From assembly GCF_016862515.1 (NCBI RefSeq), contig NZ_BONC01000008.1, positions 62,001 through 126,000 of the forward strand: a DNA stretch of 64,000 nt, given 5' to 3'. Below are positions 52,010 through 58,074 of this stretch, piece after piece (the stretch's first letter is position 1; every line of letters starts with the position of its first letter). Below the pieces are notes generated by a model that was given only the letters and a program-made list of their open reading frames with translations, was not told the DNA's origin and ran no database searches. The stretch comes from Asanoa iriomotensis. GTDB lineage: Bacteria > Actinomycetota > Actinomycetes > Mycobacteriales > Micromonosporaceae. A program made the position numbers and the translations under genes.

Positions 52010-52346
52010 TTCGGGTGGCGGTCATCCGGCCGCCCGCGTAGGGTGGCCGTCAGGATCGAGACGTTCCGATCAATCGATGGGGGGTCCGGAACTTCACATC
52101 GCTGTGCGAGATCCTCGCCGCTGGCCGGCGCGCGGGGCCCCATGGCAAGGGCCCCGAACAATGTGTGCCGCAAAGTGCGACCGTCTCGCCGTGCTCGACA
52201 CCTCGTCGGCCTCTGGCACGAGCCGGCGAACGCCTGGTCACCCGTGACCGGCCGTGCGTCCGGCGTCCAATCGTGTCGGCGACGAACGACGCGTGACGCT
52301 GCCCCGGTCCGGGTGCCTCTGTTCACCCAGACACAGGAGGCGTCAG
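52010..52346. other. 337-base intergenic region upstream of the PQQ-type dehydrogenase
   Basis: No gene seen. It holds a perfect 8-bp hairpin (CGGGGCCC 52133-52140 / GGGCCCCG 52149-52156) and a palindrome GGTCAC-CC-GTGACC (52236-52249), which could be an operator. I looked for ydaO-type and other riboswitch cores and could not support one. AGGAGG at 52335-52340 serves the next gene. Confidence 0.5.
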
Positions 52347-54425
52347 TTGCGCAAGAAGCTTGCCCTGGCCGTCGCACCGCTGCTCGCGGTAGCCGGCGGC
52401 GCCATCTCGTGGTCGCCGGCCACGGCCGCGCCACCCGGCGGCCCGCCCGCCGACAGCAACTTCCAGAAGGTCACCCTCAACGACTTTCCCGGCGAGCCGA
52501 TGAGCCTCGCCGTCCTCCCGGACAACCGCGTGCTGCACACGGCCCGCACCGGCGAGGTGCGCATCCACGACCCGAAGTCGGGCCTCAACATCCTCGCCGC
52601 CGACGTGCCCGTCTACGAGCACGACGAAGAGGGTCTGCAGGGCGTCGCGATCGACCCCGACTTCGCCCGCAACAAGTGGGTCTACCTCTACTACTCCCCC
52701 GTGCTGAACACGCCGACCGACGACCCGGCGACGCCGGACGTCAACGAGGGCGACGCGCCGACCACGGGCACCGCGGCCGACTTCGCGCCGTTCAAGGGCC
52801 ACCTCCAGCTTTCCCGGTTCAAGCTGGAAGGCAACAGGCTCAACCTCGGCACCGAGCAGAAGATCATCCAGGTCGCCACCGACCGCGGCATCTGCTGCCA
52901 CGTCGGCGGTCAGATCGACTTCGACAGCAAGGGCAACCTCTATCTGTCCACAGGGGATGACACCAACCCGTTCGAGTCCGACGGGTACGTGCCGATCGAC
53001 GAGCGGGCCGACCGCAACCCCGCCTTCGACGCCCAGCGGACGTCGGCCAACACCAACGACCTGCGCGGCAAGGTGCTGCGGATCAAGGTGAAGTCGACCG
53101 GCGGCTATACGATCCCGTCCGGCAACCTGTTCAAGCCGGGCACGGCTGAGACGCGTCCCGAGATCTACGCGATGGGCCTGCGCAACGCGTTCCGGTTCGC
53201 GGTCGACAAGCGCACCGACGACGTCTACGTGGGCGACTACTCGCCGGACGCGGGCGAGGCCGACCCGGCGCGCGGCCCGGCCGGCCAGGGTCGCTGGATG
53301 CGCATCGACAAGCCGGCGAACTACGGCTGGCCGTACTGCGCGACACCGGACCTGCCCTATGTGGACTACGACTTCGCCACGGGCGCGTCCGGCGCGCCGT
53401 TCAACTGCAAGCGGCCCGTCAACGAGTCGCCGCACAACACGGGGCTGACCCAGCTGCCCGCTGTCGAGAAGCCCGAGGTGGCCTACTCGTACGGCCCGTC
53501 GGCCGCGTTCCCCGGCCTGGGCGAGGGTGGCATCGGCCCGATGGGCGGTCCGGCGTACGAGTACGACAAGCGCAGCAAGTCGCGGGTCAAGTGGCCCGAG
53601 TACTACGACGGCGTGCCGCTGTTCTACGAGTGGACCCGTGACTACATCAAGGAGTTCCGCCTCGACAAGCGCGGCAACGTCGCCGACATCCGGCCGGTGC
53701 TGCCGTCGTTCGCGGTGGACAACCCGATGGACATGGAGTTCGGCCCCGACGGCGCGCTCTACGTCCTGGAATACGGCGACGGCTTCTTCTCGGAGAACCC
53801 CGACGCCCAGCTGGCCCGGTTCGACTTCGTGCGCGGCAACCGCACGCCGATCCCGGTGATCAGCGCCGACCCGCTGGCTGGCGACGCACCGCTGACCGTG
53901 CAGTTCTCCAGCGCCGGCACCGTCGACCCCGACGGCGACGCGCTGCGGTACGCGTGGGACTTCGACGCCGACGGCACGGTCGACTCGCGGGCGGCGAACC
54001 CGACCTACACGTACACCGCGAACGGCGTCTACCGCCCGACGCTGAACGTCACCGACAGCACCGGCCGCTCCGCGTCCGCGGAGATCCCGTCGTTCGTCGT
54101 CGGGCCGCGGGCACCCTCGATCGAGCTGACCCAGCCCGTCGCGGGCCAGCCGTTCGCGTTCGGCGACACCGTCTCCTTCCAGGTGAACGTCGTCGACAAC
54201 GACCCCGTCGACTGCTCGCAGGTGACCGTCAACTACATCCTCGGTCACGACGAGCACGGCCACCCGATCACCGCGGCGACGGGTTGCAGCGGCACGATCA
54301 CGACCTCGGCGCCCGGTCACGGCTCGGGCGACAACCTGAGCGGCGTGTTCGTGGCCACCTACACCGACCCCGACGGCCTGACCGCCACCGACCAGGTCGT
54401 CCTGACCCCCAGCACAACCCCGTAA
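52347..54425 (+). CDS. Secreted PQQ-type sugar dehydrogenase with PKD domain
   Basis: 692 residues. TTG 52347 is the likely start: AGGAGG is seven bases upstream and a signal peptide then follows (MRKKLALAVAPLLAVAGGAI, cleavage near ATAA). The six-bladed propeller of soluble glucose/sorbosone dehydrogenases spans about 35-480 (YEHDEEGLQGVAIDPDFARN, CCHVGGQIDFDSKGNLYLST, ETRPEIYAMGLRNAFRF). A PKD domain (DGDALRYAWDFDADGTVDSR) and a beta-sandwich follow. Oxidises an extracellular sugar if PQQ is supplied; some homologues lack a cofactor. Confidence 0.9.
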   Translation: MRKKLALAVAPLLAVAGGAISWSPATAAPPGGPPADSNFQKVTLNDFPGEPMSLAVLPDNRVLHTARTGEVRIHDPKSGLNILAADVPVYEHDEEGLQGVAIDPDFARNKWVYLYYSPVLNTPTDDPATPDVNEGDAPTTGTAADFAPFKGHLQLSRFKLEGNRLNLGTEQKIIQVATDRGICCHVGGQIDFDSKGNLYLSTGDDTNPFESDGYVPIDERADRNPAFDAQRTSANTNDLRGKVLRIKVKSTGGYTIPSGNLFKPGTAETRPEIYAMGLRNAFRFAVDKRTDDVYVGDYSPDAGEADPARGPAGQGRWMRIDKPANYGWPYCATPDLPYVDYDFATGASGAPFNCKRPVNESPHNTGLTQLPAVEKPEVAYSYGPSAAFPGLGEGGIGPMGGPAYEYDKRSKSRVKWPEYYDGVPLFYEWTRDYIKEFRLDKRGNVADIRPVLPSFAVDNPMDMEFGPDGALYVLEYGDGFFSENPDAQLARFDFVRGNRTPIPVISADPLAGDAPLTVQFSSAGTVDPDGDALRYAWDFDADGTVDSRAANPTYTYTANGVYRPTLNVTDSTGRSASAEIPSFVVGPRAPSIELTQPVAGQPFAFGDTVSFQVNVVDNDPVDCSQVTVNYILGHDEHGHPITAATGCSGTITTSAPGHGSGDNLSGVFVATYTDPDGLTATDQVVLTPSTTP

Positions 54426-54467: not shown

Positions 54468-56111
54468 GTGGAACAGCCCTTCCGGACCACCCTGGCCCAG
54501 CTCCTCAAGGCCCGGTTCCCCATCGTGGCGATCGAGTCCCACGAGGAGCTGCGGGTGCTCTTCGAGGTGCGCGCGGTCGCCGGCGACGCCGACCTCGTGC
54601 GCACGCCGCGGCCGGTGTGGACCTGGTCGCTGACCGACGGGCTGCGCCGCGACGACGGCGAGGAGCAGGGCCGCACCAAGGACCCGGCCGACGCGCTCGA
54701 CGCCCTGCTGCGGTTGCAGCAGCCGGTGGTCGCGGTCTTCCGTGACCTCCATCCGTCGCTCGGTGGCGCGGGCCAGCCCGGCGACGCGGCGGTCATCCGC
54801 CGGCTCCGCGACGTGGCGACCGCGTTCCGCTCCGGCGCCGTCCCCCGCAGCCTCGTCCTGGTCTCACCCGTCAGCCGGGTGCCGGTCGAGCTGGAGAAGG
54901 ACATCACCGTCATCGACTTCCCGCTGCCGGCCGAGTTCGAGATCCGCGGGGTCCTCGAGGGCATGCTGCGCGCCAACGCCGCCTCGCCCCGGCTGCGGAT
55001 CGACCTCGACGACGACGGGCGCGAACGGTTCGCCAAGGCCGCGCTCGGCCTGACCCTGCACGAGGCGGAGAACGCGTTCGCCCGCGCGATGGTCAACGAC
55101 GGCGTCCTCGACCTCGCCGACCTGCCCGTCATCCTGGAGGAGAAGCGGCAGACCGTACGCAAGGCCGGGTTGCTCGAGTTCATCGAGACCGGCCCCCGCC
55201 TGTCCGACATCGGCGGTCTGGAAAACCTGAAGCGCTGGCTCGGCCGCCGCGAGGGAGCCTGGCTGGCCGACGCCGCCGACTACGGGCTGCCCGCGCCGCG
55301 CGGCGTGCTGATCACCGGCGTCCCCGGCTGCGGCAAGTCGCTGACCGCCAAGGCCGTCGCCGCCGCGTGGGGCATCCCGCTGCTGCGCCTCGACATCGGC
55401 CGGGTGTTCGCCGGCCTCGTCGGGTCCAGCGAGCACAACATGCGCGCCGCGATCCGCACCGCCGAGGCCGTCGCGCCGTGCGTGCTCTGGATCGACGAGA
55501 TCGAGAAGGGCTTCGCCGCCACGGGCGCCAACGACTCCGGCACCTCGTCGCGCGTGTTCGGCTCGTTCCTGACCTGGCTGCAGGAGAAGAGCCGGCCGGT
55601 GTTCGTCATCGCCACCGCCAACGAGATCGAGAGCCTGCCGCCGGAGCTGCTCCGCAAGGGCCGCTTCGACGAGGTGTTCTTCGTCGACCTGCCGACCCGG
55701 GCGGAGCGGGGCGCGATCTGGTCGGTGCACCTGGGGCGCTGGCTGCGCCATCCGCGGGTCGGCGGCGCTCTCACGGCCGACCACGCGGTGCTGACCGAGC
55801 TGACCACGCTGAGCGAGGGTTACTCGGGTGCGGAGATCGAGCATGCGCTGATCGCCGGGGTCTACGACGCGTTCGCCGAGCGCCGGCCGCTGCGCCATGA
55901 CGACGTGGTGCGGGCCCTGGTCAACATGGTGCCGTTGAGCGTCACCCAGGCCGAGCGGATCGCGGCCGTACGCGCCTGGGCCGACGCCCGCGCGGTCGCC
56001 GCGACCGCCGCCGAGGACTGGGATCTCGGCACGCCGGTGGCCCCCACGCAGCCTCGGCCGGACGGCGGAGGCCCGCACCGGCCACACGGCGGACGCCCCG
56101 TTGAGTTCTAA
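54468..56111 (+). CDS. Ycf46-like AAA+ ATPase
   Basis: 547 residues. An N-terminal domain of about 230 residues ([20 protein letters not shown] ... [20 protein letters not shown]) and a C-terminal AAA+ domain: Walker A GVPGCGKS (284-291), Walker [10 protein letters not shown] (Asp343-Glu344), sensor-1 region [12 protein letters not shown] and arginine-finger region [14 protein letters not shown]. This order is that of Ycf46 proteins of plastids and cyanobacteria. Start GTG 54468 with a -10-like CACACT 7 bases before it. First gene of a five-gene operon; remodelling activity likely, target unknown. Confidence 0.87.
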
Positions 56112-56138
56112 TGTGGGCATCGACGGCGGGAGGATCCG

Positions 56139-56594
56139 ATGAGCGTTTCCCTCCTTCTGGTCCCGGTGGCGCTGGCCGCCGCCGCGGCCATCCAGGCGCG
56201 CGCGTCCGGCGGTGAGGCCAAGGGCACCATCTGCACCGTGTCGACCCGGATGCGCGACAGCGCCCTGCTCGCCACCGCGCTGCGGGAGACCGGTGCCGTG
56301 GTCACCGCCGCCACCGACGTGGTCGACGCGGCCTGGCAGGGCGTCGAGGGGCGGTTCACCCGCGGCGCCGACGGCGTCTGGACCGCGCATTTCCGCGGCG
56401 ACGTCGACGAGACGCGGGCGGTGGAGATCGTCCAGCGGCTCGACGCCGCCTACGGCCGGCAGGTGCAGGCCGCGGTGCTCGACCGGCTGCGTGACCGGGC
56501 GCCGGCGGCCGGGCTGCGCCTCGAGTCCGAGACGGTGACCGACGACGCCGCCGTCCGGCTGGTCTTCGCGGTCGAGCGGCAGGAGCGGGCATGA
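56139..56594 (+). CDS. Ycf35-like (DUF1257) protein
   Basis: 151 residues. After a hydrophobic start (SVSLLLVPVALAAAAAIQAR) the protein shows STRMRDSALLATALRETGAV, a WTAHFRGD strand pair and AYGRQVQAAVLDRLRDRAPA with a closing DAAVRLVF. This resembles the DUF1257 layout (sTRMrD...L...L...G, YarqkV...l...Gf...IrLV). Assignment by pattern only. GGGAGG precedes ATG 56139; stop overlaps the next start. Confidence 0.68.
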   Translation: MSVSLLLVPVALAAAAAIQARASGGEAKGTICTVSTRMRDSALLATALRETGAVVTAATDVVDAAWQGVEGRFTRGADGVWTAHFRGDVDETRAVEIVQRLDAAYGRQVQAAVLDRLRDRAPAAGLRLESETVTDDAAVRLVFAVERQERA

Positions 56595-56803
56595 GCGCAC
56601 AGATCACGGTGGTGGTGGCCGCCGACGGCACGGTCCACGCCGAGACGCACGGGTTGCCCGGCCCGGCCTGCCTCGACTACATCGCGGTGCTCGAGGACCT
56701 GCTCGACGCGACCACCGTGTCCAGCGCCTACACGGCCGACTTCCACCACGCGCGCAGCACGGTCGAGGCGGCAGAAGTGGTGCGCGATGTCGACCGGCGC
56801 TGA
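56591..56803 (+). CDS. DUF2997-like small protein
   Basis: 70 residues: ITVVVAADGTVHAETHGLPG, then PACLDYIAVLEDLLDATTV and AYTADFHHA. This is the DUF2997 pattern (strand, DG.v..Et.G..G..C......le..lG......t.ef), a family usually encoded beside Ycf46 and DUF1257 proteins. One conserved Cys. Its start overlaps the Ycf35-like stop and its end overlaps the next gene by 17 bases. Confidence 0.72.
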   Translation: MSAQITVVVAADGTVHAETHGLPGPACLDYIAVLEDLLDATTVSSAYTADFHHARSTVEAAEVVRDVDRR

Positions 56804-57449
56804 CCCGGCACACGGCTTCTGGTGGCGGATCACCCACAGTCTCTGGCTGCTGTTCCCGATCCTCGGGTTCGGCTGCGGCGGGGCGGGCGCGCTCATCTTC
56901 TTCGGCTTCCTGCTGCACCGCCGGTCGACCTGGATCAGCGGGATCGTCTACCTGGCCCTGTCGATACCCGCGTTCGTCGTCGTGGGCGAGTCACCGACGG
57001 AAAGCACGTCGAGTGATTGGGCCGTCAGCGTGCTGATGGCGGTCTGGGTCGTCACCATCGTGCACGCCTTCACCGTCAACATCGCGTGGCTGCGCCGGCA
57101 GCGGGGGTACGACGCACCCTGGCCGTCCGCACCGGCGGCGCCGCTGGTGCCCCCGCCCGGCTACGCCGCCGCACCCACCGGCCCGGTCGACGTCAACTCG
57201 GCCGGCGCAGAGGATCTCGCCGCGCTGCCACACTTCGGCCACGCGCGGGCGGTGCGGGCCATCGCCGAGCGGGACCGCCTCGGCGGCTTCGCCGACGTGT
57301 TCGAGTTCAGCAACACGCTGGAGCTGCAGCCGCACGAGTTCGTGCGGATCTTCCCGCTGGTCGTCGCGAACCCGATCGCGCCGCCGGCCCCGGCCCCGCA
57401 GCCGCCGCCAGGCCCGGTCGGGCAGCCCGGCCGCATCGTCGATGTCTGA
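56787..57449 (+). CDS. Membrane protein with helix-hairpin-helix domain
   Basis: 220 residues. Three to four membrane helices (about 18-44, 50-67, 78-102), a Pro-rich linker, a helix-hairpin-helix-like domain (about 134-190: PVDVNSAGAEDLAALPHFGH, ARAVRAIAERDRLGGFADVF) as in ComEA-type proteins, and a Pro-rich tail. HhH domains bind DNA non-specifically or act as protein adaptors. Its position makes it the membrane anchor of the putative complex. Confidence 0.8.
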   Translation: MSTGADPAHGFWWRITHSLWLLFPILGFGCGGAGALIFFGFLLHRRSTWISGIVYLALSIPAFVVVGESPTESTSSDWAVSVLMAVWVVTIVHAFTVNIAWLRRQRGYDAPWPSAPAAPLVPPPGYAAAPTGPVDVNSAGAEDLAALPHFGHARAVRAIAERDRLGGFADVFEFSNTLELQPHEFVRIFPLVVANPIAPPAPAPQPPPGPVGQPGRIVDV

Positions 57450-58074
57450 GCCGGCCGTCACCGTCGCCCGCTACCTGGCGACCACGACGGCCGAAGGCCC
57501 CGGCACGCGCACCGCGGTCTGGGTGCAGGGCTGCACGATCCGCTGCGCGGGTTGTTTCAACCCCGACCTGTTCCCCACCGAGGGCGGCACCCGCTGGTCA
57601 TCCGCGGAGTTGGCCGCGCGCGTGCTGACCGAGCCCGCCACGGGCCTCACGCTGCTCGGCGGCGAGCCGTTCGACCAGGCCGACGGGCTGGCCGAGGTGG
57701 CCCGCCGGGTCCGTGCCGGCGGGCGCTCGGTGCTCACCTTCTCGGGTTACACCCACGCCGCCCTGCGCCGCGCCGCGGCGGCGGGCCGCCCGGGCGTCGC
57801 CGACCTGCTCGCCGCGACCGACCTGCTGATCGCGGGCCCGTTCCTGCGCGACCGGGTCGACCACGACCGCCCGTGGGCCGGCTCGACCAACCAGGAGTTC
57901 GTCCTGCTCAGCGACCGCTTCCCGGACCTGGTCGACTGGCGGCGCGGCGCCGTCGACCGGATCCAGATCGACGTCGACCGGTCCGGCACCGTCGCCGTGA
58001 ACGGCTGGCTCGACACCGACCGCCTCGACGCGCTGCTTGCTGATCTCCAAAGAATTAACTCTGGACTTATATAA
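57442..58074 (+). CDS. Radical-SAM activase-like [4Fe-4S] protein
   Basis: 210 residues. Cys31, Cys35 and Cys38 form the CX3CX2C cluster motif (GCTIRCAGC); GGEPF (residues about 73-77) and [11 protein letters not shown] follow as in NrdG/PflA-type activating enzymes. The partial barrel matches NrdG length. No glycyl-radical enzyme gene is present in the window, so its target could be one of the operon proteins or a protein elsewhere. Overlaps the previous gene by 8 bases; the last codons are unusually AT-rich. Confidence 0.88.

Follow-up and report, generated by a model that had tools for sequence, protein, structure and literature searches.

Positions 54468-58074 of a 64,000-nt stretch of the genome of Asanoa iriomotensis, a soil actinobacterium (Micromonosporaceae; 8.57 Mb; assembly GCF_016862515.1, contig NZ_BONC01000008.1, positions 62,001-126,000; this whole stretch is the window, and its positions are used below) carry an operon of five genes on the forward strand, two of whose products, an AAA+ ATPase and a membrane helix-hairpin-helix (HhH) protein, end in one C-terminal tail. 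All five open reading frames (ORFs) that an earlier note had drawn from the bare sequence were confirmed in position and strand. They encode, in order, the ATPase (547 amino acids (aa), 54468-56111; PF00004, E 5.8e-31), a protein referred to here as protein 2 (151 aa, 56139-56594), a DUF2997 protein (70 aa, 56591-56803), the HhH protein (220 aa, 56787-57449) and an NrdG-like radical S-adenosylmethionine (radical-SAM) protein (210 aa, 57442-58074). The five genes are real and form one unit, as the note had it, but not all of them overlap: a 27-bp gap follows the ATPase gene, and the other three junctions overlap by 4, 17 and 8 bp.

The tail common to the ATPase and the HhH protein is the new point of this analysis and reads (G)R-x-(V/I/L/F)-(D/E)-hydrophobic-COOH. 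In A. iriomotensis the ATPase ends with GRPVEF and a stop codon (56091-56111), and the HhH protein with GRIVDV and a stop codon (57429-57449). Among loci of this operon type (single loci are numbered with an L) the tail fits 29 of 30 ATPases and 28 of 31 HhH proteins, the misses being L030 among the ATPases and, among the HhH proteins, one remnant and two whose genes run off the end of a contig. Its Gly and Arg are invariant in 28 aligned ATPases, an alignment that leaves out L061 and the tailless L030, and Gly is replaced by Asp or Ala in three HhH proteins (L028, L062 and L101). The tail is also rare. A DNA pattern for it (CGN for Arg, V or L third from the end, F, L, I, M or V last, in these spellings only) occurs at five places on both strands of the 8.57-Mb genome, and the two that end in a true stop are both in this operon. 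Five other Asanoa genomes have five true-stop places beyond the operon. The three of these that were examined, a set that excludes two of the three from genome G002, all lie in frames without coding-like base use. The pair is kept where the genes are arranged differently: the HhH protein of Microbacterium, encoded by the last gene, ends FGRRVDY, with GGRTVDY on the ATPase, and the Rhodococcus pair is GRRLEF and GRTFEF. On the ATPase the tail closes a segment of 34 residues (514-547) predicted to be disordered (predicted local distance difference test, pLDDT, <50), and on the HhH protein it follows three hydrophobic segments, a variable Pro-rich linker, an HHH_3 domain (PF12836, E 2.1e-7) and a second linker, a layout that agrees with the membrane HhH protein of the earlier note.

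The ATPase has one Walker A motif only. Its active C-terminal AAA domain (55188-55991), defined by Pfam and conserved columns, carries Walker A GVPGCGKS and Walker B LWIDE, whereas the N-terminal half (54468-55166), with no G-x4-GK[ST] in residues 1-240, is predicted from the motif scan and structural alignment to be a degenerate first AAA-like domain. The AlphaFold2 model is of middling confidence (pLDDT 73, predicted template modelling score 0.52; residues 158-216 mostly below pLDDT 50) and aligns along its length with p97, Cdc48 and NVL in Foldseek (TM 0.4-0.6 by query); a sequence search of solved structures also led to the p97/Cdc48 group. The model contains the two AAA modules of a p97/Cdc48-like protein, but not two active ATP sites. 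The ATPase thus resembles, as modelled, a two-module p97/Cdc48-like AAA+ protein with an inactive first module; two AAA modules and a disordered C-terminal tail would be common to it and to p97/Cdc48, NVL and Pex1/Pex6, and a first module without Walker A sets it apart from them. It matches phrog_8638, whose listed function is unknown, over residues 2-516 (E 3.3e-134). An assignment to the anti-phage ATPase IetA/IteA was rejected, with 69 bits against a cut-off of 510, and the PADLOC IetA matches hit the AAA part only. The likeness to Ycf46 (slr0374) of Synechocystis and red-algal plastids is a naming of the earlier note and not a sequence comparison, and the cyanobacterial relatives of the ATPase that were seen are plasmid-borne only. 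Inactivation of Ycf46 is reported to lower carbonic anhydrase EcaB activity (PMC7496141, citing Jiang 2015), and both Ycf46 and Ycf35 are retained in red-algal plastids (PMC5940233).

The two small proteins differ in how firmly they can be placed. The DUF2997 protein scores 50.3 bits against PF11211, for which the curated cut-off is 24.1 (E 2.2e-13), so that this assignment of the earlier note is borne out. Protein 2, which the note had named DUF1257/Ycf35, has no match to PF06868 (DUF1257) in Pfam, either alone or in 26 aligned family members (L033, L061, L066 and L082 left out), and PF06868 has 0 matches across the whole A. iriomotensis genome. In profile-profile comparison, however, its family matches DUF1257 proteins over most of the protein length (hhalign E 8.2e-5, probability 61%), a control comparison of DUF2997 with DUF1257 gave no match, and iterated profiles of protein 2 and DUF1257 reciprocally recover each other's loci. 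Hence, despite the failed Pfam search, protein 2 is by these profile comparisons a distant DUF1257 relative and not a Pfam member; it differs from cyanobacterial Ycf35 in its hydrophobic N-terminus (56139-56207, from hydropathy) and in lying below Pfam detection. Its fold says little, because the structure model (pLDDT 77) had no PDB match at E <= 0.001 and a single, nameless BFVD match (E 8e-4). The sequence search of solved structures returned nothing for protein 2 and one meaningless match for DUF2997 (E 0.94).

The radical-SAM protein matches Fer4_12 (PF13353, E 1.1e-28), and its CX3CX2C motif (57532-57555, followed by GGEP) and GGE motif are invariant in 26 aligned proteins (L061 left out). 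NrdG (TIGR02491, E 7e-24) is its best NCBIfam match, at 84.5 bits and below the cut-off of 126.1, and the sequence search of solved structures led to the activase of pyruvate formate-lyase (PFL). Glycyl-radical enzymes of PF01228 and PF13597 were each found in 0 of 6 genomes of the genus Asanoa, while both families matched in control genomes, and an NrdD partner was likewise found in 0 of 6. The statement that no glycyl-radical enzyme is encoded thus holds, for the two families searched, well beyond the operon. Because both are missing in all six genomes an ordinary activase role is unlikely, and a glycyl-radical activase role was rejected for these two families; of the CX3CX2C activase in the earlier note, the motif stands and the activase role is improbable. 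Counts over 105 ATPase loci (best matches rather than a random sample, some of them incomplete) make this gene the least constant part of the operon: within the fetched stretches it is present in 27, DUF2997 in 60, DUF1257 in 51 and none of these in 42. The radical-SAM part is therefore optional and the DUF pair the commoner partner of the ATPase. Other NrdG-like radical-SAM genes of the family have other neighbourhoods and lie near ClpB-like AAA genes or near kinase-like, FHA-like and CHAT-like genes (L040, L045 and L049; labels by eye). On a Treponema succinifaciens plasmid (L113) a radical-SAM gene and an ATPase of this type lie within an annotated contractile injection system cluster, and the stretch that was fetched gave no DUF2997 or DUF1257.

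A radical-SAM search of 121 genomes, A. iriomotensis and 120 relatives, gave matches in 22, of which 10 including A. iriomotensis had at least 56% identity. The five genes occur together in all 9 of these close relatives, so that the co-occurrence on which the earlier note had staked its reading holds. An HhH alignment search found 51 loci, with all five families in 24 (7 of which coincide with loci already collected); 22 match the HhH profile only, three are cut by contig ends (two being halves from one genome), and Catenuloplanes (L101) keeps only the ATPase and the HhH protein, its genome having one partial radical-SAM match elsewhere (E 4.5e-13). The remaining locus, L082 in Micromonospora sp. 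CPCC 205371, is a decayed remnant in which a single 156-aa frame partly matches the DUF1257-like, DUF2997 and HhH profiles. All five genes are kept in shuffled order in Microbacterium (L072-L074), a Rhodococcus plasmid has the same set including HHH_3, and plasmids of Paenarthrobacter and Arthrobacter carry the ATPase, DUF1257-like, DUF2997 and radical-SAM genes with a tailed gene at the HhH position, whose HhH domain is putative. The viral contig L129 has two HHH_3 proteins together with radical-SAM, ATPase, DUF1257-like and DUF2997 genes. Moreover, the machine is not special to actinobacteria: viral contigs carry relatives of the ATPase, and so do plasmids from Cyanobacteriota, Bacillota, Spirochaetota and Pseudomonadota. 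Those on cyanobacterial, Bacillus, Paenibacillus and Rhizobium plasmids include relatives with annotated DUF1257 and DUF2997 neighbours. Among candidate viral stretches, 482 of 565 encode an ATPase relative at a tblastn E <= 1e-3, a number that may include other AAA proteins, and the best 80 were retained. A sample of 396 genomes from the phylum gave DUF2997 in 3, A. iriomotensis included, and DUF1257 was detected in 8 of 300 genomes of the family, A. iriomotensis not among them. Genes in unannotated loci were called by an ORF picker and not by a gene finder, and L159 and L161 gave no ATPase call.

In divergent loci the ATPase tail changes and the tail of a neighbour changes along with it. The ATPase of Paenibacillus polymyxa ends NYRRISH and its neighbours SRVIHF and KRVIRL; the pairs are FGTDLEF and FSDIEF in P. 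urinalis, FEDLDL and YADLEL in P. rhizovicinus, RRAVLLG and GRRILL in Komagataeibacter, and TRKVLV and NRKIKI in a streptococcal satellite phage, the ATPase being named first in each. Inspected by eye, 17 annotated plasmid and phage loci include five without a clear partner (L113, L118, L120, L122 and L126) and one doubtful case (L127). The tail partners belong to HhH (two), DUF3150 (three), YpsA-like (one), DUF6744 (one) and other families without an assignment, and PHROGs gave mostly no match or a function listed as unknown for 19 proteins taken as tail-sharing. Statistical tests used 54 clusters, to which the 105 loci of plasmid, phage and genome origin had been reduced, and the mean best tail score was 15.80 compared with 13.72 when tails of other loci were used (0 of 20,000 permutations) and 14.34 when the own tail was shuffled (0 of 200). 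When this operon type was removed, the 50 remaining clusters gave 15.32 compared with 13.66 (1 of 20,000) and with 14.40 for shuffled tails (1 of 200). Within these 50, the 33 clusters with DUF2997 retained the signal (8 of 20,000 and 3 of 200), and the 17 without it gave 1,025 of 20,000 and 41 of 200. A fixed motif was also commoner beside ATPases that carry it (19 of 606 neighbours) than beside the others (7 of 1,259). Of 13 tail-sharing records that were searched over their full length, 9 had DUF2997. The same 13 records gave no radical-SAM match, but they had been chosen for having none close by, some of them are fragmentary and no positive control accompanied the search, so that the result says no more than that tail sharing is possible in the absence of a radical-SAM gene; tail-sharing loci with such a gene are this operon type and L116, L117, L119, L123 and L131.

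Two unrelated proteins of one operon that bear one private tail are read most simply as docking into one pocket, for which Mpa and Bpa on the proteasome, alike in GQYL only, set a precedent (PMC10415612). The explanation that we favor, at close to an even chance, is that the operon encodes a membrane-recruited, p97-like unfoldase set, in which the private tail would dock the ATPase and the HhH protein on a common partner. The core of the set would be the AAA+ protein with its inactive first domain, DUF1257 and DUF2997, a p97-like unfoldase set of bacteria and phages. Carried on flexible linkers, the two tails would reach the same pocket of a partner that is most likely the DUF1257-like/DUF2997 pair, and docking would bring the HhH protein and the cargo of its HhH domain, DNA or protein, to the ATPase at the membrane. 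Since its end is the ATPase tail, the HhH protein would likely be a dedicated adaptor or client of the ATPase, and the radical-SAM protein an accessory enzyme or a [4Fe-4S] redox part that serves no known glycyl-radical enzyme; we infer these roles together with the docking itself. That the pair is probably the reader follows from tail sharing being clear only in the clusters with DUF2997 and from the presence of DUF2997 on most of the whole records. The earlier note is thus confirmed in part as an observation and supported in part as an interpretation: a dedicated machine in which DUF1257-like and DUF2997 proteins join an AAA+ remodeller is supported, and its genes do co-occur, but a modification machine stays a hypothetical description, as tail sharing also occurs on the 13 selected records where no radical-SAM gene was found. 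More tentatively, and somewhat short of an even chance, the tails may amount to a C-terminal code, with which a p97-like machine of bacteria, plasmids and phages (and, by name, of plastids) picks partners by its own tail; unrelated proteins such as the membrane HhH protein, DUF3150, SLOG and repeat proteins would then join by gaining the tail of the local ATPase.

Several observations weigh against docking through a shared tail. Control segments at -20 to -12 (z 2.1-2.8) and the neighbour N-terminus (z 3.0) also score above chance, which indicates that composition explains part of the wide tail signal, although segments at -30 to -22 gave none (z 0.1-0.4). Just 7 of the 54 clusters reach p 0.05 alone and 47 are not significant singly, and many clusters have no visible tail partner. 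Within the operon type there is no pair covariation: an ATPase tail is no nearer to the HhH tail of its own locus than to others (31 pairs, z 0.7; 11 clades, z -0.4; L030, L067, L076 and L082 left out). In many Micromonosporaceae the HhH tail overlaps, with its final D-V, the start codon of the radical-SAM gene, an overlap that is not seen in Microbacterium or Rhodococcus, where the tails are kept. The L030 ATPase frame ends without the tail while the HhH tail there is kept, and the monomer model shows a disordered ATPase tail. Catenuloplanes keeps both tails in a genome with no DUF2997 match, which argues against DUF2997 as the sole reader.

The last point brings in the main rival for the tail reader, the ATPase itself, whose degenerate first domain would bind the HhH tail as a tag, its own tail being a built-in pseudo-substrate that restrains it. 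We consider this unlikely. The ATPase is the only part present in every tail-sharing locus, though by construction of the search, and tails persist without a DUF2997 match in the Catenuloplanes genome and on 4 of the 13 whole records, but the 17 clusters that lack DUF2997 show no significant tail sharing, though with low power, and in the monomer model the tail is not docked. Rather improbable in our judgment is that the radical-SAM protein takes the tails as its substrate sites and modifies both proteins near their C-termini. Such a role would suit an NrdG-like enzyme that has an intact CX3CX2C and belongs to a genus without a known glycyl-radical enzyme, and several tail-sharing loci hold its gene; the radical site of glycyl-radical enzymes has the context RVxGY, which R-x-V-(D/E)-(F/Y) recalls. 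It fits poorly with the tail Gly being Asp or Ala in three HhH proteins, and with the whole records lacking a match, as far as records selected for lacking the gene nearby can speak. Activation of a distant glycyl-radical enzyme, which the ATPase would reload, is hardly credible: NrdG is the best-matching NCBIfam family, yet below its cut-off, and the absence of PF01228 and PF13597 from all six Asanoa genomes, with positive controls, tells against it.

We regard as improbable that the likeness of the tails arises as a by-product, be it from composition, from gene overlap or by chance, in an ordinary uncharacterised AAA+ cluster. The compositional part of the wide signal, the lack of covariation within the operon type and the overlap with the next start codon, which fixes part of many HhH tails, would all be expected from a by-product, whereas the rarity of the tail in the genome, its conservation in 29 of 30 and 28 of 31 proteins, the non-overlap cases and the permutation and shuffle controls would not. 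Docking on the actinobacterial 20S proteasome appears very improbable. Tail-sharing relatives occur in Bacillota and phages, which are not known to have such a proteasome, and the penultimate residue is Asp or Glu and not Tyr. The logic of such docking is the same, in that Mpa and Bpa have only GQYL in common and use one proteasome pocket (PMC10415612); a C-terminal motif common to two unrelated proteins is what the 20S proteasome system and the Asanoa operon share, although the Asanoa motif is another one and its docking partner is putative.

Other known systems offer partial likenesses. In the cyanobacterial DUF2997-ycf35(DUF1257)-fed7 cluster, DUF2997 and DUF1257 also stand beside a [4Fe-4S] protein, but this is a ferredoxin instead of an NrdG-like radical-SAM protein, and the cluster as described has no ATPase or HhH gene (PMC4284462). 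The fed7 ferredoxin has a DnaJ-like protein as binding partner and gives protection from oxidative and metal stress (PMC4284462). On a cyanobacterial plasmid Hsp70 and GrpE genes adjoin the set; together with the fed7 case this hints, by analogy, at a chaperone-like role. In the ternary conflict systems with FtsH the N-terminal AAA domain of the AAA+ protein is likewise inactive, and a subset of these systems has a radical-SAM domain as effector (PMC7159879), but they are built round MoxR and vWA, and the two genes flanking the Asanoa operon are neither; the accessible text of PMC7159879 mentions neither DUF2997 nor helix-hairpin-helix. In the literature searched none joins Ycf46 with radical SAM and AAA, and none names DUF3150. 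No paper on a tail common to this ATPase and a partner was found, in searches that were not aimed exactly there and that left subscription journals mostly uncovered. DUF2997 and DUF1257 are themselves rarely named in that literature, even though Ycf46 and Ycf35 are kept in plastids and ATPase relatives occur in many viral contigs. The shared tail offers a concrete handle here, as in each genome it points to a likely partner and as peptides of six residues are enough to test it; if the tail code is real, bacteria and phages possess a p97-like unfoldase with a readable recruitment code.

Some further neighbours were recorded. At L169 and L188 a protein matching phrog_11021 (function listed as unknown) is encoded directly downstream of an ATPase ending TRTLDL or PRELDI, and no DUF2997 match was found on the whole record of either. 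L112 and L039 have an Hsp70-like neighbour, with GrpE also in L112, and large proteins that look repeat-like by eye and end with FDIDIED/FDIEIS-like stretches. In the window itself, Pfam searches of the two neighbours showed that the operon is flanked by a glucose/sorbosone dehydrogenase (GSDH)/PKD gene and an AHSA1 gene; the former lies upstream on the same strand (52254-54425) and encodes a glucose/sorbosone dehydrogenase-like protein with a PKD domain, of a family unrelated to the operon.

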